This document shows positions 10,393 to 20,319 of a DNA stretch of 64,000 bases, one piece after another. The stretch comes from Clostridiales bacterium (lineage in GTDB: Bacteria; Bacillota; Clostridia; Oscillospirales; Oscillospiraceae): assembly GCA_021202775.1 (NCBI GenBank), contig JAJQCJ010000109.1, positions 1-64,000 of the forward strand, given 5' to 3'. Below the pieces are notes generated by a model. That model worked only from the letters and a program-made list of their open reading frames with translations, had not been told where the DNA came from and did not search any database. The stretch's first letter is position 1, and every line of letters begins with the position of its first letter. A program made the position numbers and the translations under genes.

Positions 10393-11260
10393 TCATTCCA
10401 CGGAGACAGTATGTCCCATTTCCTCCCAAACGGACTGCTGTTCACTGGCCCAAGAACCGTCTACCACATGTATTGTGGTGGTTGCATCTGTGTTCAGGGA
10501 AGAAGTCGCGTCATACTCCTCCAGTATCATGCCCTCCGGCATGTAGATGTCCGTTAATCCGGCAGTCAGAAACGCACCTGCCCCTAAAATTGTCAGAGAC
10601 TCCGGTAATGTGATTTCTGTCAGTGCGGAACACCGTTCAAACGCCTGTTCACCAATGGTTGTGACGCTGTCCGGCAGGTTGATGCTCTCCAGGCTGATGC
10701 AATAATTGAATGCGCCGTCGCCAACCTCGAGCAAACTCGTCCCCTCAATGATCACCTCACGCAAGGAAGAACAGGATTGAAATGCATTTGCACCAATCAC
10801 TGTGACAGTAGACGGGATGGTGACGCTTTCCACTGAGGACCCATAGAACGCCTGACTTTCAATTTCGGTTAGTCCTTCCGGAAGCACCACGGTTTTCAGG
10901 CTGCTGGAGCTGGCAAAGCCAGCCCCCAAAACGAGGTCGTGGTTTCCCTCAAAAGTAACTGTTTCCACACAGATGTCCTCGCCGGAGAAGGGCGAACCGG
11001 AAAAACCCTCGCAGCGCTCCGGGATTACCAGTGTAGTCTGTTTTGCTCCGGTTTCGGTCAGACCACTGATGTAATTCTCATTGGAACCGTAGATATCCCA
11101 CTCGAAATAATCTTCGTTAGCAACGGAGGCATTGGATGCGTCATCGTCTCCAGTTGTCGCTTCTGAGGCTGTATTGCTGCTCCCTCCGCAGGCACAGAGC
11201 GTCAGTAACCATTGTGGCCAACAGCAACGAGAAAAAACGCTTCATTTTTATAGGCTTCAT
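10393..11260 (-). pseudogene. BspA-type leucine-rich repeat lipoprotein with frameshift near the signal peptide
   Basis: LRR_5 repeats (LTEIESQAFYGSSVESVTIPSTVTVIGANAFQSCSSL). Upstream MKPIKMKRFFSLLLATMV and LTLCACGGSSNTASEATT lie in two frames; one extra base near 11207 separates signal peptide from lipobox. Confidence 0.65.
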
Positions 11261-11279
11261 AATTTTTCATCATATCCTT

Positions 11280-11732
11280 TCATTTTGTAATTAAGCTGTA
11301 AACGATGACTGCCAGCACCCACGGAAGTGCATAGACCCAAAGGTTTCCTTTTCCCATCGCGCTTTCTGGCTTTGCACGAGCAGGAGTTCGTTTCCAATAG
11401 AACACGAGATGTTGAGGTGGGTTATGCCAAAACCAGGTGCTTTTACGGTAGCGACGTCCATTTACCTCAAACTCATAATTTCCACAGTAGCGTCGCTTAT
11501 TGTCTTTTGTCCAGGCAAAGCTGCTGTTGCGCAGTTCAGCAATGGCATATCTTCCTGTTTCTTTCGCACGCCTGCGCGCTTTTTCTTCGCTGTCGATGCT
11601 GATGCCACGCTTCCGCGTGAAAACGAAAATCAGGACATAGGACAAGATCAAAACTACGACAGGAATGCCCGACCGCCAGTTGCGAAGCCCCATGAGAAAG
11701 ATCTCGCTGATCGTATATTCATTCGTGCTCAT
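11280..11732 (-). CDS. Hypothetical membrane protein (150 aa)
   Basis: Two hydrophobic segments; conserved orientation within the Tad locus. Confidence 0.6.
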   Translation of the reverse strand: MSTNEYTISEIFLMGLRNWRSGIPVVVLILSYVLIFVFTRKRGISIDSEEKARRRAKETGRYAIAELRNSSFAWTKDNKRRYCGNYEFEVNGRRYRKSTWFWHNPPQHLVFYWKRTPARAKPESAMGKGNLWVYALPWVLAVIVYSLITK

Positions 11733-11768
11733 TACGAAATAATCCTTTCATCTCATCAGGTTGCAATT

Positions 11769-13112
11769 TTAGTCGGTGATGTTTCGCGTCAGCAACTGAT
11801 AGGTATCGGATGCCGTTGCCACCATGCAAATTCCATCGTCGTCAAAATAGTCCGCGTCCAAAAACGTATAATCAATGACCAAAATATTCTCGGTGTTGAT
11901 AAATCCCCAGTAGATTTCGCCTTGGACTGCAGCCAGACCATTTGAGAAGCTTTTCGCATTTGCATAGGTCGGTTCTATGACCTCATTACCCTCCAAATCA
12001 GCAAATCCCCATAAGCCATCCCGTTCAAATGCAATCATGGAGCCATTGTCTGTCACACAGTCAATATCATCACAGGTGAGAGAGCCGAGTTGCTCACCAT
12101 TTTCGTCATAGAGGTGGTATGCGCCATCCAACTTTGCCAGCATGACACCGTTTTTTAGCCAGGAGCCATCTGCGTTCAACTTAATATCCTCGTAGACAGC
12201 GGAGGATACTTCATTTCCGGCAGTATCAATCAGTATCCAACCGTCTTCGGTTTCTACTGCGGCAGTACCATCCTGAAAAGAGCTGGCGTTCAGGTACTCG
12301 CCAAATTGCAAGTCGCCAAGTTCATCATAATAGGACCAGGTATCCCCATTTTGAATGGCTACCAATCCTTCTGTATAGACTCCTGCATCCGTTGGAACAA
12401 AAGAGAGCTTTCCCTGAACAATGCCATCCAGGTCGCACAGTTTGCCTTGGCCATCTTCAGAGCAAACATATATGCCGTTTTCTCCTATGGAATAACAGCT
12501 TTCCAGCGTATAGGAAACCAGTTTCTTTCCCGCACTGGAGACGATTCCCCAGCCGTTGCCACTGTAAGCAGCATAGTATTCATTGCACAGGAGAAGCCGC
12601 TGCGACCAAGAGGAAGATCCGATGGTATAGCTGTACTTGACCTCCAGGTAGAGTTGCTCCAGTTCCTCATCCGCCACACCAGTGTCCCTGTTCAGCGTCA
12701 GATACTGATAGGCGGAGCTGTAGTCATCGTTCTCCAAGCACAGATTCACCGCAATTTTGCAGAAATCAGTATTTTTTGGATATGCCTTTGTCGCCTTTTT
12801 TGCGGCGGAAAGATAGACGCTGAAAATATCATCGTCCTCCTCGTACCGGCAACGGTATGCTTCCAGCAGTGCGGCCCAGTCCTCCTCATTGTTCTTTAAC
12901 GAGACGGCGGTGGTGTATTCGACAGCGGCCTTTTGATACAATCCCCGCTCCATATAATCCTCCGCCAAGGCGATGCACTGGTTGTAATTCCCCGTGGTAT
13001 TGGCATCGCCCTCCTCAACTGCTCCGGTGCCTATGCCTAATGCACAAGCGGCCCAGCCGAAAGCAATCAGGAGAATCAGCAAGACGGTAACAATTCCTTT
13101 GGATGCTCTCAT
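11769..13112 (-). CDS. WG-repeat protein with signal peptide and TPR-like region
   Basis: Repeated WGFAD/WGFIN modules: GLWGFADLEGNEVIEPTYANAKSFSNGLAAVQGEIYWGFINTENILVIDYTF; start MRASKGIVTVLLI behind a GGAGAGG-like RBS. Confidence 0.8.
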   Translation of the reverse strand: MRASKGIVTVLLILLIAFGWAACALGIGTGAVEEGDANTTGNYNQCIALAEDYMERGLYQKAAVEYTTAVSLKNNEEDWAALLEAYRCRYEEDDDIFSVYLSAAKKATKAYPKNTDFCKIAVNLCLENDDYSSAYQYLTLNRDTGVADEELEQLYLEVKYSYTIGSSSWSQRLLLCNEYYAAYSGNGWGIVSSAGKKLVSYTLESCYSIGENGIYVCSEDGQGKLCDLDGIVQGKLSFVPTDAGVYTEGLVAIQNGDTWSYYDELGDLQFGEYLNASSFQDGTAAVETEDGWILIDTAGNEVSSAVYEDIKLNADGSWLKNGVMLAKLDGAYHLYDENGEQLGSLTCDDIDCVTDNGSMIAFERDGLWGFADLEGNEVIEPTYANAKSFSNGLAAVQGEIYWGFINTENILVIDYTFLDADYFDDDGICMVATASDTYQLLTRNITD

Positions 13113-13128
13113 TTTTCCTCTCCTCGGT

Positions 13129-13851
13129 TTAATACATTGCCAGCAGGACAGTGACCACAAAGCCAAGCAGTACAAAGGGGCCCATCGGCAGCGTGTCTTT
13201 CAAGGTCTTCTTTCGGAACAACAACAGGCTCGCAGATGCCAGCGCGCAGAGAATGCAGGAGAACAGCAATGTATATGCCGCTCCATAAAGTCCACAGAGG
13301 AATCCCAAACCGCCAAACAGCTTGACATCCCCATATCCCAGTCCCCCGTGAGAGATTTTGGATACCAGCATCAAAAACAGCATACAACCCAATCCGCCCA
13401 CAACACTGCTGAGCAGACGAGACAGTGTTCCTTCATATGTAAAAATCAGCTCTGGCACAAGGAAAAGCACGCGTCCAACCAAAAGAGTGAGAACATACGG
13501 ATGGGGGATCCTAAAAAATTTCACATCCGCCAATGCGGCACACGCCAGGACGCAATACGCCAGCAGCAGCTTCAATATACTTATCGGTGAATTCGCGCAC
13601 TGAGCCGCCTGGTACCCGCACAGACAGGCCAGCGGTACGCAGCCGAGGGCTGCAAGGAGCAATCCCCTTTTAGGCTGCGTGGCCGCTGGCTGCGGCAGTA
13701 CTTCGGTAACGGGTTCGGTTGCGGATTCGTCGGTGGGAACGGGTTCGGCATGCTCCTGTTGCCGGAGCAGCTTTGGTAGCTGCCACCTGTACCATGCGGC
13801 CAGTGTCACGAAGGAGACACAGCCCCAGGCCAGACTCCAGAGAACAGACAC
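13129..13851 (-). CDS. Prepilin peptidase, A24 family
   Basis: ADVKFFRIPHPYVL and GYGDVKLFGGLGFLCG motifs with multiple TM segments. Confidence 0.85.
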   Translation of the reverse strand: MSVLWSLAWGCVSFVTLAAWYRWQLPKLLRQQEHAEPVPTDESATEPVTEVLPQPAATQPKRGLLLAALGCVPLACLCGYQAAQCANSPISILKLLLAYCVLACAALADVKFFRIPHPYVLTLLVGRVLFLVPELIFTYEGTLSRLLSSVVGGLGCMLFLMLVSKISHGGLGYGDVKLFGGLGFLCGLYGAAYTLLFSCILCALASASLLLFRKKTLKDTLPMGPFVLLGFVVTVLLAMY

Positions 13852-13892
13852 AAAATCCCCTCCCCTGTGGTGTAAATGTGGGCAACCTTTTC

Positions 13893-14114
13893 TCAGAGAC
13901 CAAGACCGTCGAGGAAATTTGTCACATAGCCGGATACTGTCTCCATGACTGTTTTGCCAAGCGTCAGGAACAATCCGGCCAGCACAACGACGATGGCAAT
14001 GATTAGCAGTATGGAGACAAAGTTCGTGTCGCCACGGTCAGACGATTTGAACTCATTCCACCCATTTGTCACCGCAAGGTACAGGCCAAGCATCATTTGA
14101 TTCAACTGTTTCAT
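13893..14114 (-). CDS. Flp-like pilin (divergent)
   Basis: 73 aa with SSDRGDTNFVSILLIIAIVVVLAGLFLTLG, next to prepilin peptidase and TadC. Confidence 0.65.
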   Translation of the reverse strand: MKQLNQMMLGLYLAVTNGWNEFKSSDRGDTNFVSILLIIAIVVVLAGLFLTLGKTVMETVSGYVTNFLDGLGL

Positions 14115-14138
14115 AATGTGTCCCTCCTTTTTTAAATT

Positions 14139-15005
14139 TCAAAACAGCGCACCCGCGAAGGCCGCAGTAATGACAATAATCAAGATGCCGACAAATACCA
14201 GCATGGTAGGCACCAGCAGTTTGGTGGCCGCCTTTTCGCCGCTTTGGAGCATTTTCTGGCGCTTCATAGCCCAAAGCTCACTGGATTGCCGTTCCATAAA
14301 CAGCGTCAGTTCAGAGCCTCCCTTTTCCAGGCTTTGCAACATGGCGCTGGTGAATTTTTTCACCTCAAGAGAGCCAGAGAGGAGGCCAAACTGATACATC
14401 GCGTCTACTTCCGGGACGCCGTTGTTCATGTCGTCACTGGCTTTGCGCATCAGCTGATAAATGGTACTGTCACCGCTCTCGCTGACCAGGCGCCACACGT
14501 CCCGCAACACCATGCCGGAGTTTAGCAGAACGGCCATGGAAGAAACCACATCCGGCAGTTTCGCATCGCACTCCTCAGTCCGCTTGGACAAGGTGTTCGA
14601 CATATTTGTCAGGCTGTAAACTCCCATAAATACGGCAATAAAAATACCAACGGCCATTATAAAGCCTGCTGTACTGAAAAACAGCCCCGCCAGCAGGAAG
14701 GCCAGCGTCAGTGTCAAATGTACCAATGTAATTGCCTGTACCCAAGCAATATTGGCATAATAATCCGCAAATTGTTCCTTAAAGAGAATTGCAGCCTCTC
14801 GTTTGAGTTTGGCGGCTAACTTTCCGCGAAAGCGGAGGGGACCTCTGGACGACCAGGCAAACCCTGCAACATACAGACTACACAGGGGATACTCCATTCC
14901 ATCAAGAACGCTGACAGCTTCGTCATAGTTTTTGCCTCGTTTTAGTTGAATCAGGAACAAAACAGCCAAAACCGTGCCTACCGTAAGTAAGATTACTCGT
15001 GCCAT
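14139..15005 (-). CDS. tadC: TadC-like T2SS F-domain protein
   Basis: T2SSF-type sequence LPDVVSSMAVLLNSGMVLRDVWRLVSESGDSTIYQLM; position in Tad operon. Confidence 0.85.
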   Translation of the reverse strand: MARVILLTVGTVLAVLFLIQLKRGKNYDEAVSVLDGMEYPLCSLYVAGFAWSSRGPLRFRGKLAAKLKREAAILFKEQFADYYANIAWVQAITLVHLTLTLAFLLAGLFFSTAGFIMAVGIFIAVFMGVYSLTNMSNTLSKRTEECDAKLPDVVSSMAVLLNSGMVLRDVWRLVSESGDSTIYQLMRKASDDMNNGVPEVDAMYQFGLLSGSLEVKKFTSAMLQSLEKGGSELTLFMERQSSELWAMKRQKMLQSGEKAATKLLVPTMLVFVGILIIVITAAFAGALF

Positions 15006-15008
15006 AAC

Positions 15009-15854
15009 TTACCCCTTTATGTCCATGATCGACTGCGCCGTAAAGTAGGCAACAGCAAAAATGACAATCGCCACTGTTATGGCTATTATTCCAGGCACAG
15101 TTGAGAAGCTGGCGGCAAAGGAACTGCTCATATACCGCAGCATCAGCACCAGTACAACCGGAAACACGATCATCACATTAAACTGCGACTTGTTGGAGGA
15201 TATGGTGGTTTCAATTTCCTCGCTGATTTCGATTTTCTCACTGATGATGTTGTTGGTGCGGCGGACAATGTCTTTCAAGTTGCCGCCTGTGCGGTAGCAC
15301 ATGGAAAACACGATGCCAAAGCTCTTAATGTCGTCGATCTCGCTCCGCTCACCAAAGAAGGCGATGGTCTCCTCCAGCGGAACGTTGTTTTTGATGCCAT
15401 TTAACATTTCCTTGACTTCCTGCACGATATAAGCGTCTTCGGAATACTCCAGTGTAAGGTCATTGCAGGCACTTTCCAGTGATTCCTGCATATTCATACC
15501 GCTGGAAAGCGATGCTGCCAGCGCAGACAGCAACTCACGAAACTGATGGGTGATCTGCGTTTTTCGTTTATCCCGGAGCTTCCTGCTCCGCACGGATAGG
15601 AACACACTACCAACAATCACACCAACTACCAGAAAGATGACTATATTTCCGATATATGTTGCAGTGGTTGCCAAACCGTCCTCGTCCTTGAACTGTCCCC
15701 CGTAAAAAATCAGTCCAACGCCGCCGCCGACAACAGCGGCAAGGAGGAAGGTTAAAAGTTTCTCGGCCGCAGACATATAGTATACCCGATAGTTAAGCAT
15801 GGGAGTATTGAGCGCGGATGGGATATACTGCGGTTCTCTTGCTTTTTTTCCCAT
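15009..15854 (-). CDS. tadB: TadB-like T2SS F-domain protein
   Basis: QFRELLSALAASLSSGMNMQESLESACNDL motif; position in Tad operon. Confidence 0.85.
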   Translation of the reverse strand: MGKKAREPQYIPSALNTPMLNYRVYYMSAAEKLLTFLLAAVVGGGVGLIFYGGQFKDEDGLATTATYIGNIVIFLVVGVIVGSVFLSVRSRKLRDKRKTQITHQFRELLSALAASLSSGMNMQESLESACNDLTLEYSEDAYIVQEVKEMLNGIKNNVPLEETIAFFGERSEIDDIKSFGIVFSMCYRTGGNLKDIVRRTNNIISEKIEISEEIETTISSNKSQFNVMIVFPVVLVLMLRYMSSSFAASFSTVPGIIAITVAIVIFAVAYFTAQSIMDIKG

Positions 15855-15864
15855 AGTTTCTCCT

Positions 15865-17106
15865 TCAAATCACAATCTTTTTTCCCGCCAACTGTAGCTT
15901 TTGGATGTTGACCATTGGATTTTCTGTTCGTTCCAACCGGCCAGAAACACGTTCCAGGGTGGAGTTTTCATCCTCTCTGAACTCATAGAGCGGGTTCAAT
16001 TGAATCACCCCCTCTTTCACATCTAACACTTCCGTGATTGCCATCGTTTTACGGGAATGATCCCGCAAACGGGACAAATGGATGATAATGTCCAGGGCGG
16101 AGGCGATCTGCATACGAATTGCAGGCAAAGGCATTCCGGGCGCACCCTGCAGTACCATTGTTTCCAGACGGGAGAGCATATCGCTAGTGGAGTTGGCATG
16201 ACCGGTGGACAGAGAACCGTCATGACCGGTATTCATAGCCTGAAGCATATCCAGCGCCTCTCCGCCGCGCACCTCGCCTACAACAATGCGTTCTGGCCTC
16301 ATTCGCAGCGAAGACTTGATCAGATCACGGATGGTAATCTCACCTGCGCCGGCATTATTGGCATTGCGGCTTTCAAGACTGACCAGGTTGTCAATGTTGG
16401 CCAGTTGAAGTTCTGCGGAATCCTCAATGGTAATGATACGTTCTTCCTTGGGGATGTAATTGGACAAGGCATTCAGGAAGGTAGTCTTTCCGGAGCCTGT
16501 GCCACCGGAGATGAAAATATTGTATTTGGCCTCGACCAGCGTTTTCAGGACGTCAGCAATTTCCTCGGTGATAGATCCATAACGAATCAACTGTTCAATG
16601 GTCATGGGTGTTTTAGAAAACTTTCGGATGGTCACAACCGGTCCCACCAGTGAGATGGGCGGTAGAACGACATTGACACGGGATCCGTCTTCCAGTCTGG
16701 TGTCTACGATGGGGGATGCCTGACTGACCTCTCTGCCCGCTGCACCGACAATGCGCTGGATCACGTCCTCCAGACGCTTTTCACTGTCAAAAGAGGCGTT
16801 CAGCCGTTGAACCTTGCCGGCACGTTCGATGAAAATGTTCTGAGGACCATTGATCATCACCTCGGTAATGGAATCGTCTTTCAGGATTGTGTCCAAAACC
16901 CCAAGGCCACGGATGGAGCTATAAACATTTTGTACAATATTTGCCTTTTGCCGGGATGAACAGTAGGTTCCGTTCAGGCGCTGGGTGACCAGATGTTCCA
17001 GACGGATTTCTAATTCTTTATCCGAAAGGCTGCTCAGAGGCATTGCCTCCTTCGCATACTGCCGCAGTTCTTCAGTAAACTGTTGTTCCGCTTCCCGTGT
17101 CATCAT
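15865..17106 (-). CDS. tadA: TadA/CpaF-family secretion ATPase
   Basis: Walker A FISGGTGSGKTTFLNALSNYIP; MRPERIVVGEVRGGEALDMLQAMNTGHDGSLSTGHANS. Confidence 0.95.
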   Translation of the reverse strand: MMTREAEQQFTEELRQYAKEAMPLSSLSDKELEIRLEHLVTQRLNGTYCSSRQKANIVQNVYSSIRGLGVLDTILKDDSITEVMINGPQNIFIERAGKVQRLNASFDSEKRLEDVIQRIVGAAGREVSQASPIVDTRLEDGSRVNVVLPPISLVGPVVTIRKFSKTPMTIEQLIRYGSITEEIADVLKTLVEAKYNIFISGGTGSGKTTFLNALSNYIPKEERIITIEDSAELQLANIDNLVSLESRNANNAGAGEITIRDLIKSSLRMRPERIVVGEVRGGEALDMLQAMNTGHDGSLSTGHANSTSDMLSRLETMVLQGAPGMPLPAIRMQIASALDIIIHLSRLRDHSRKTMAITEVLDVKEGVIQLNPLYEFREDENSTLERVSGRLERTENPMVNIQKLQLAGKKIVI

Positions 17107-18194
17107 ATCGTGCCCCCGCCGGAAACCGGCTGAAGAATGGCATCAAGCTCACTGTTGTCTGCTAAGAGCTGAAGCAGTTCCTGTGTCGTCGCATTTTCAA
17201 TGCGGTTGACACCTCCGGCCTCTGTATAAGGCAGAGAACGTAACCGTTTTCCCGTTTTACTACTGAACCTGTTATAAAAGAGAACGATCCGATCCATCGG
17301 CAACTCTGTTCCCTGTTCGTTCAGGATGGTCAGTGCATCCAGGCAGCGATTAAGCTTGAGATTAGCCCGTTCGCTACCGTCGGAGACAAAAACAGTTCTG
17401 TAGGAGCGTTCTATCTGCTGGTACATTTGAGAGGAAAAGCAAAACGCAGTATCCACTACGATCCATTCGTAAAGCCTCGCCTTTTCCAACTCCTCAAAAA
17501 GCTGTCGCATCTTCTCCGCATCCAACTCCAACAGATCCAAAGCAGATGCACATTCAGAATAATAGAACACACCGCAGGCATCCTGCTTTGCCGCACTTTC
17601 CAGGCGCATGGAAAGCATTCCATTTGCCATAGCCAGACTGTAGAGGACATCGCTGAAACCGCTGTCTCCTCCGCCGGAAAAATACAAGTCGGCATTTCCA
17701 CAGGGTTCCAGATTTAAGTATAAAACTTTTTGACCCTGTGAGGCTAACCGACGCGCAAAGGCGGCAGCAGCCACCGAGGTACCAGTACCTCCGGCAGCGG
17801 AGCAAAAAGTGATAATCTGACAGACACGATTTAAGTCTCCCTGCAAAATCACAGAGGAGCCCGCGCTTTCTGCATATACATCCAGAAGTTCACGGTAAAT
17901 TTCGGAGATGGTCTGATATTTGCAAATCGCTCTATGCTGATTGATGAGATGAATTCCTTTTTGCGCTACGAAGTATACCAATTCTACGCTTGGGGGTAGT
18001 TTGAAATCAACAGCCCCAAATTCATCCCCCACAAGGAAAATGTTGGGGCGCTGTTCTACAAGAACGGTTTCCGCTACCTGTTTTTGTGTGAAAATGGAAA
18101 GGTCTACCTTATCTGCATATTGTAAAGTGATGGCCGCGAGTAATTTATCTGTATATTGGGTATCACTTGTTAATAGAGCGATTTTAATTTTCAA
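17103..18194 (-). CDS. tadZ: TadZ/CpaE-like ATPase
   Basis: Deviant Walker-like CSAAGGTGTSVAAAAFARRLASQGQKVLYLNLEPCG; 4-nt overlap with tadA. Apparent TTG start. Confidence 0.8.
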   Translation of the reverse strand: MKIKIALLTSDTQYTDKLLAAITLQYADKVDLSIFTQKQVAETVLVEQRPNIFLVGDEFGAVDFKLPPSVELVYFVAQKGIHLINQHRAICKYQTISEIYRELLDVYAESAGSSVILQGDLNRVCQIITFCSAAGGTGTSVAAAAFARRLASQGQKVLYLNLEPCGNADLYFSGGGDSGFSDVLYSLAMANGMLSMRLESAAKQDACGVFYYSECASALDLLELDAEKMRQLFEELEKARLYEWIVVDTAFCFSSQMYQQIERSYRTVFVSDGSERANLKLNRCLDALTILNEQGTELPMDRIVLFYNRFSSKTGKRLRSLPYTEAGGVNRIENATTQELLQLLADNSELDAILQPVSGGGTI

Positions 18195-18352: not shown

Positions 18353-18381
18353 GTGTCGTAGAGTGTTTTACTCTACGACAC
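18353..18381. repeat. Left copy of recombinase-flanking site
   Basis: GTGTCGTAGAGT-GTTTT-ACTCTACGACAC. Positions 18355-18380 equal the reverse complement of 19810-19835. Confidence 0.95.
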
Positions 18382-18440
18382 TGTAGAGAAAACATTGAAA
18401 TTGCAGGCTATTGTGTCTTAGTGACAAGTATTTTGACTGC

Positions 18441-19559
18441 TTATGGGATTCCGGGCCAATTCACTTTCTCCATATTTTTCTGTTTCAACGCCATCGAGCA
18501 ATGCACATAGCGATTCATTGTAATGGATACATTTGCATGACCCATAATTTCGCTGAGAGACTTCATTTCAAAACCAGCTTCTATACAGCGTGTAGCAAAG
18601 GTATGTCGGCAGGTATGTACTGTAACGTTTTCCAGACCACAGGCTGCGGCATATTTGGCAAATGACCTTTGCACGGTTCGCGGCTCCATATATTGCTCTG
18701 TCCCAGTCAAAACAAAACCAGTGCCGCTTGCAGGACGAAATTGCTTGCAAAGAGCAACCATACCATCCGGAATAGGGATAGTGCGGACTGAAGAGCGGCT
18801 TTTGGGTGGCCCTATTACAATAATTGTCTTATTTTCAGTATTTGCTTCAAGATTACTGATCCGCTGCATACTTGCGTCAATTCGCAACAATTTTTTCTCT
18901 AGAAATATGTGGTCCCATTGCAACGCACACAGTTCACCTAGTCGAATGCCTGTTGTAAGTGCTAATAAAATTCCCAATTTACGCAGGTCAAGTTCCCTCA
19001 ATAGGAAATCTGCTAATGTTTTTTGCTCTTCAATGGATAAAACACGAATTTCTGTCTCTTGATCACAAGGGTATATGACATCAATTTTGCACATCTGCCC
19101 CGCGTGCTGGCTTGCTACATATTGCAGAACAGCATTTAAAACAACCAAAATGTCTTTTACTGTTTTAGGCGCAAGTTTCTTTTCCTTTAGAAGAAGTTCA
19201 CTGAATGACGATACCACCATGGAACTTACTTCAAACGGCAGCAGATTTCCAAAATAAGGGATAATATGGTTACGGAGAAAACCCTGATATTTGATATATG
19301 TCGAAGTTCGCAAGCAAATTTTTTTCTGTTGTATCCAAGTATAGCAACAAACTTCAAAAGATATCTTTTCCTTTTTCACGGAATATGGCTCACCTTGCAG
19401 ACAGCATATCCTTGCAGATTCTGCATTCTTTTTTGCTTCTGCATATGTCTTTCCATAGCAATACCCATATATAATTTTACCTGAGGAATCTCGACCTTTG
19501 CGATAGCGGGCCTCCCAACGGCCATCTTTTCTTTTAAAAATGTTCTCGCCAGTTCTCAT
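18441..19559 (-). CDS. Tyrosine-type site-specific recombinase/integrase
   Basis: TTGIRLGELCALQWDHI, HTCRHTFATRCIEAG, IMGHANVSITMNRYVH motifs (R..HxxR..H/Y). Start MRTGENIFKRKDG behind AAGGGAG. Confidence 0.92.
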   Translation of the reverse strand: MRTGENIFKRKDGRWEARYRKGRDSSGKIIYGYCYGKTYAEAKKNAESARICCLQGEPYSVKKEKISFEVCCYTWIQQKKICLRTSTYIKYQGFLRNHIIPYFGNLLPFEVSSMVVSSFSELLLKEKKLAPKTVKDILVVLNAVLQYVASQHAGQMCKIDVIYPCDQETEIRVLSIEEQKTLADFLLRELDLRKLGILLALTTGIRLGELCALQWDHIFLEKKLLRIDASMQRISNLEANTENKTIIVIGPPKSRSSVRTIPIPDGMVALCKQFRPASGTGFVLTGTEQYMEPRTVQRSFAKYAAACGLENVTVHTCRHTFATRCIEAGFEMKSLSEIMGHANVSITMNRYVHCSMALKQKNMEKVNWPGIP

Positions 19560-19734
19560 ATGATGTAAGTCTCCCTTTCCTAATTTAGCCGTTTCCATTT
19601 TCTGGTTATAATATTTTGACTGCTGATTGACTGCGAATAGCTATAAAATAAGGAATCAACAGCAATTTTTGTCGAATTTTGATAGTTGTTCTTAAATATA
19701 TCGCAAATTTTTATAATTTACATGAAAAAACTTG

Positions 19735-19763
19735 TTGAACAATCCTGAATAGTGTGTTACAAT
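19735..19763 (+). promoter_or_regulatory. Sigma70-type promoter inside the recombinase segment, directed rightward
   Basis: TTGAAC (19735-19740), 17-nt spacer, TGT-TACAAT (19758-19763) with extended -10. Confidence 0.6.
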
Positions 19764-19810
19764 ATTCTTAAATCCTAGGAAATCTCGGGCGAAATTTCCA
19801 TTTGCTTCAT

Positions 19811-19840
19811 GTCGTAGAGTAAAACACTCTACGACTTTTT
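19811..19840. repeat. Right copy of recombinase-flanking site, followed by T5 (terminator-like on + strand)
   Basis: GTCGTAGAGT-AAAAC-ACTCTACGAC-TTTTT; exact reverse complement of the left core. Confidence 0.95.
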
Positions 19841-19864: not shown

Positions 19865-19892
19865 GAAGCAAAGAGAATCTTCTCTTTGCTTC
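19865..19892. terminator. Strong hairpin, terminator-like on the - strand
   Basis: GAAGCAAAGAGA-ATCT-TCTCTTTGCTTC; followed by TTTTTT on the minus strand. Confidence 0.5.
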
Positions 19893-19895
19893 ATA

Positions 19896-19918
19896 TTATA
19901 CCGCTTATAGCGGTATAA
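19896..19918. repeat. Perfect inverted repeat upstream of XRE gene
   Basis: TTATACCGCT-TAT-AGCGGTATAA. Confidence 0.8.
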
Positions 19919-19995
19919 ATCAGCAAAAACAGATACTTAAATCGTGATAACTATTGCTCTTATTTGTATAAACTTATAAATAGGAGGTGGCTATT

Positions 19996-20319
19996 ATGGA
20001 TACACAGTATATCAGAGATCGAATTACAGCCTTGCGAAATCAAAAAGGTGTCTCAGAATACAAAATGAGCACGGATTTAGGACATAGCAAAAGTTATATT
20101 CAAAGTATTTCATCTGGAAAATCCCTGCCTTCCTTGTCGGAATTTCTATATATATGTGAATATCTGGAGGTAACACCGCTGGAGTTCTTCGACGATTCGA
20201 TTTCCTATCCGTCACTGGTAAATCAAATCTACGAATTGTCCAAACATATGAAAAAGGAGGATTTAGAATTGCTAATTGATGTTGCAACACGGTTGAGCTG
20301 CGATGGCAACGATGACTAA
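19996..20319 (+). CDS. XRE-family helix-turn-helix regulator
   Basis: HTH_3 pattern ITALRNQKGVSEYKMSTDLGHSKSYIQSISSGKSLPSLSEFLYICEYLEVTPLEFF; RBS AGGAGG. Confidence 0.85.
   Translation: MDTQYIRDRITALRNQKGVSEYKMSTDLGHSKSYIQSISSGKSLPSLSEFLYICEYLEVTPLEFFDDSISYPSLVNQIYELSKHMKKEDLELLIDVATRLSCDGNDD

Follow-up and report, generated by a model that had tools for sequence, protein, structure and literature searches.

A candidate invertible promoter cassette with its own tyrosine recombinase upstream of a Tad pilus locus in a Clostridiales bacterium

The window, meaning the whole stretch of 64,000 nucleotides that was analysed, carries a Tad pilus locus on the minus strand. The tadZ gene (17103-18194; TadZ-like, PF21194, 3.8e-23) heads the operon that is the inferred target, and tadA, tadB, tadC, a Flp-like pilin and a prepilin peptidase lie downstream of it at 13129-17106. 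The small pilin (13893-14114, minus strand) was recognised by eye and by a Pfam match that is below threshold. The genes after the tad genes (10393-13175) include one for a BspA-type leucine-rich repeat protein and one for a WG-repeat protein.

Upstream of tadZ two inverted sites enclose a segment of about 1.48 kb (18355-19835), with both a recombinase gene and an outward promoter inside it. The left site (18355-18380) is found 167 bp upstream of tadZ, and no promoter-like site (at least 9/12) facing tadZ was found in these 167 bp. The right site (19810-19835) equals the left site exactly when read as an inverted repeat, the arms being 100% complementary over 26 nt. Each copy is also a near-palindrome, with 10-bp arms around a 5-bp centre that is GTTTT in the left copy and AAAAC in the right, and because these centres are asymmetric the two copies are seen to be in inverted orientation. 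The site motif has two matches in the window compared with 0.01 in shuffles of the window. A search of the 2.5-Mb genome to which the window belongs gave no site copies beyond this pair and no close second recombinase.

The sole gene between the sites encodes a tyrosine recombinase (18441-19598, minus strand; PF00589, 1.4e-23). Among solved structures the closest are 6en0, 6emy and 6emz, all of Int (Tn1549 Int), and the catalytic motifs are intact and aligned. Since the alignments with relatives mostly begin at residue 8-15 of the long frame, at around residue 14, and AAGGGAG is found upstream of the ATG at 19559, the gene probably starts at 19559 rather than at 19598. As the segment is now oriented, the stretch from the recombinase stop to tadZ, 18355-18441 included, has no evident terminator, and transcription may read through from the recombinase gene into tadZ.

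The putative outward promoter, TTGAAC-17-TG-TACAAT (19735-19763, plus strand), was identified by hexamer match and by comparison with relatives. It is situated 46-47 bp inside the right site, with the TG ahead of the -10 hexamer, and points out of the segment. A scan for consensus promoters over 4.5 kb gave 7 hits with 9.7 expected, which is not above chance, and the promoter is considered real by comparison and not by its scan score. An outward promoter (at least 9/12) was present 10-50 bp inside the gene-upstream site in 47 of 59 cassettes related to that of the window, where shuffles gave a mean of 5.1 and a maximum of 11. At the stricter threshold of at least 10/12 the count was 32 cassettes against 0.9 in shuffles; inward promoters were then found in 2/59 and outward promoters at the other end in 2/58. 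An alignment with three near relatives shows no change at the key positions of either hexamer. The earlier note had placed this promoter about 50 bp inside the right site, reading rightward, and it is present as stated. The window promoter has TTGAAC as its -35 hexamer, and its distance from the site is 46 bp where relatives mostly have 24-27 bp. A small extra hairpin (19778-19800) that is absent from the near relatives lies between promoter and right site and accounts for the greater distance.

Together with the TTTTT that stays fixed just beyond it, the right site forms a predicted intrinsic terminator (19811-19840, plus strand), with a 10-bp stem containing five G-C pairs, a 5-nt loop and five T. 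The fold has an energy of -23.7 kcal/mol and a z-score of -4.55. The left outside flank, read outward, is ACGAAGAATAG and contains no T-run. Among the relatives, a T-run just outside the site occurred on the promoter side at 13 of 59 loci, against 2 for the opposite side (p 0.004), a bias that is suggestive only, the T-run threshold having been picked within this analysis. When the flip is computed, the promoter comes to lie 233 bp before tadZ with the same hairpin in between, now without a T/U-run, while the 3' end of the recombinase gene precedes the hairpin and TTTTT. A separate, strong terminator-like hairpin on the minus strand (19865-19892) would block transcription into the segment from the right.

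The reading that we favour, with a probability of roughly 0.76, is that 18355-19835 forms an invertible promoter cassette, complete in itself, that flips, and that the tad genes are off or low in the orientation assembled. Sites, recombinase, promoter and terminator, the conserved layout and the inversion of relatives at other loci are shown by sequence; both inversion in the window species and ON/OFF transcription of tad are what we infer from it. Against this reading stand the single orientation of all seven clear Tad cassettes described below, the greater promoter-to-site distance with TTGAAC as the -35, and a promoter scan at chance level. The tyrosine recombinase would act on the two near-palindromic sites (10-bp arms, 5-7 bp overlap) and thereby flip the segment. 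As assembled, the promoter would fire into the right site, where the hairpin and fixed TTTTT would end the transcript, and with no evident promoter of its own at tadZ the Tad operon would be off or low. After a flip the promoter would stand before tadZ, separated from it by a hairpin without a T-run, and the operon transcript would begin with some 227 nt of leader. In the ON state the recombinase transcript would be ended at the hairpin and TTTTT, whereas in the OFF state it could continue into tadZ, and the length of the recombinase mRNA may depend on orientation, as for fimE. The terminator at the right site, the left flank free of T-runs and a flipped promoter reading through the left site toward tadZ had all been claimed in the earlier note, and each agrees with the folds and the computed flip. 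Its wording for the present state, "OFF or low", is also suitable, since the stretch from recombinase to tadZ, in which no terminator was found, could leak, so that the state need not be silent.

Beyond the right end of the segment lies a gene for an HTH regulator (19987-20319, plus strand; HTH_3), a possible alternative target, and the palindrome TATACCGCTTATAGCGGTATA is found upstream of it (19898-20319 region). The cassette might flip and control this gene, or both neighbours alternately, the present state then being HTH on and tad off. The promoter currently faces the HTH gene, and HTH genes recur next to the promoter-side site in four related cassettes (L010, L027, L035 and L062), where they could have a role in switching or be a second target. 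The hairpin and TTTTT however lie between promoter and gene, the gene has an upstream region of its own bearing the palindrome, and it is the tad side that is common to the other Tad cassettes, so that control of the HTH gene is an unlikely explanation.

With the recombinase as bait, 80 relatives were fetched (about 90 in the whole comparison), and all prevalence figures consequently describe this recombinase family and not invertons at large. One genome was used per species, and flank genes were called by a simple open-reading-frame method. In about 60 of the 80, inverted copies of one motif, TTTCGCAGAGTTnnnnACTCTGCGAAA, were found on both sides of the recombinase gene, about 190-345 bp before it and mostly 60-160 bp after it. 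Most of the loci lacking a site pair had none within 1.5 kb, and two had larger segments. The outer arm positions of the site vary freely within a locus, while the 6-bp centre (positions 11-16) was the same in both copies at 58 of 60 loci and between loci in 0.6%. Site pairs were picked for similarity, which somewhat inflates the exact 58/60 but leaves the difference between centre and arms untouched. Such a pattern is what the overlap region must show for a tyrosine recombinase to exchange strands. A private overlap sequence would keep a cassette from recombining with other copies. Where a single neighbour reads away within 450 bp, the promoter faced that neighbour at 12 loci and faced away from it at 14.

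Comparison of related cassettes points to flipping at other loci. The cassettes of L026 and L040 are 97.2% identical over 1.5 kb. They share a 5.8-kb flank, 95.5% identical, which adjoins the 3' side of the recombinase at one locus but its 5' side at the other, and the break coincides with the site. In L053 and L178, whose cassettes are 85% identical, both flanks are swapped, and a similar flank exchange was seen between L063 and L079 and between L017 and L032, the latter being two contigs of one genome. The L026/L040 cassette precedes genes for an SLH-domain protein and a PilB-like type IV pilus ATPase (L026 7679-12681). Both orientations are thus found in relatives at other loci, as opposed to one at tad loci.

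The latter was established by searching samples of the order, class and family for tadZ genes (PF21194) and inspecting the upstream regions of 40, some of which were shortened by contig ends. A recombinase of the same family as in the window was found just upstream of tadZ at 8 of the 40 loci. Seven of these have clear inverted sites (the window, G346, G423, G435, G267, G214 and G485); G119 has a recombinase before tadZ but degenerate sites and was counted as uncertain. The gap between site and tadZ is 43-68 bp in G346, G435, G267 and G214 (about 40-60 bp in G214, depending on the choice of start), and in the same four a good outward promoter is found 23-32 bp inside the far site. A gap of this length is too short for a separate promoter, so the flipped cassette would provide the only local one. 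G423 has a further gene between its site and tadZ. Several genomes have contig breaks just ahead of tadZ, which might have reflected inversion within the sampled population, but this idea was dropped when no site motif was found at the contig ends.

All seven clear Tad cassettes are in the OFF orientation, with the promoter pointing away from tadZ and the recombinase gene co-oriented with tadZ; a cassette in the opposite (ON) orientation was found at none of the 40 tadZ loci. When the DNA of 148 relatives was searched for a reversed version of the window locus, diverged cassettes alone came up, none of them at tad. Under equal frequencies, seven of seven in one orientation has a two-sided p of about 0.016, a value that assumes independence, yet at least five of the cassettes are related. 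The pattern suggests that the switch is likely OFF-biased at tad loci; little or no switching there is the alternative, and one with which the counts are compatible.

In the phylogenetic tree five Tad cassettes form one clade (support 100/99). The window cassette falls outside it and groups with L008 and L176, then with L009 and L011. The flanks of these four share homologous DNA, and in L009 and L011 the neighbouring genes encode capsule-type sugar transferases. As the window cassette lies outside the main Tad clade, the topology indicates at least two recruitments to tadZ, in which cassettes of different lineages came to occupy the same slot in the same orientation. Chance insertion would not readily be expected to yield the same slot and the same orientation twice. 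A wider proposal, made tentatively and at slightly under even odds, is that the cassette is a portable on/off module, each copy of which brings along a recombinase, an outward promoter and a private overlap. In Clostridia and Synergistota it would have been placed repeatedly ahead of operons for unrelated surface structures (capsule, type IV pilus and S-layer genes, Tad), with two or more recruitments before tadZ and an OFF bias there.

The single orientation at tad loci would also fit a locked relic that does not flip here, tad being expressed in some other way, for instance through transcripts continuing from the recombinase gene or from a promoter of non-consensus sequence within the 167 bp before tadZ. 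The lack of an evident terminator between recombinase and tadZ and the displaced window promoter likewise favour such a relic. It is nevertheless improbable, slightly more so than control of the HTH gene, given that the two sites match at all 26 bp, the recombinase has an unbroken frame and aligned catalytic motifs, the promoter hexamers are conserved, and four other Tad cassettes leave almost no gap for a promoter. A further view, that the inverted repeats are not a switch but the ends of a prophage remnant or a small mobile element of the integrase type, is very unlikely: the enzyme does resemble Int proteins of conjugative transposons and cassettes adjoin many different genes, but integrated elements have direct-repeat attachment sites whereas those of the window and of every clear locus are inverted, the segment holds no other mobile genes, the outward promoter is conserved, and the flank comparisons indicate inversion in place.

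An invertible promoter cassette, the favoured reading, is known in kind. The H segment of Salmonella, responsible for flagellar phase variation, likewise carries both the recombinase gene, hin, and an outward promoter inside the flipping segment. It differs in using a serine recombinase and an enhancer, whereas the window has a tyrosine recombinase (PF00589), different sites and a Tad target. The fimS switch of E. coli type 1 pili shares with the window a tyrosine recombinase, an invertible promoter and a pilus operon, but is about 300 bp long with FimB and FimE encoded outside, while here the recombinase is within the segment of about 1.48 kb. Recombinase genes inside invertible segments have been described before, as for Hin and for an 844-bp invertible fimbrial segment of Providencia stuartii (PMC5903667); the latter belongs to another phylum and another fimbrial type. 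Within the Clostridia, the RecV-dependent cwpV and flg switches of Clostridioides difficile also combine a tyrosine recombinase with inverted repeats, and RecV acts on several distant sites (PMC5903667). A terminator has been proposed to form at the repeat of cwpV in the OFF state (PMC2784873), although the cwpV promoter lies outside its 195-bp segment, unlike the window promoter, which is on the segment together with the recombinase. In the hCom2 gut community, a Clostridia inverton group (139) is tied to nearby tyrosine recombinases (invertase group 35) and changes in orientation were seen; the examples described in the text have about 206-228 bp between repeats (PMC11892184), compared with about 1.48 kb here. 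Control of Tad pili by inversion was not found described in the papers searched, which lay mostly outside the subscription literature, and Tad as a target is what appears new.

If the favoured reading is true, the Tad pili of some little-studied Clostridia are phase-variable. The combination of recombinase and site motif would flag dozens of switches in genomes and point to their target genes, and a locus-specific overlap would explain how several cassettes coexist in one genome without scrambling. One cluster of flank genes taken for pilins among the relatives was rejected, the proteins being helicase-associated (HA) proteins. In L021, L026, L031, L036, L040, L043, L046 and L058 one end of the cassette is accompanied by additional tandem site copies that share its centre, and in L057 and L076 the inverted sites are 2.4 kb and 4.5 kb apart and enclose other DNA besides the recombinase gene.
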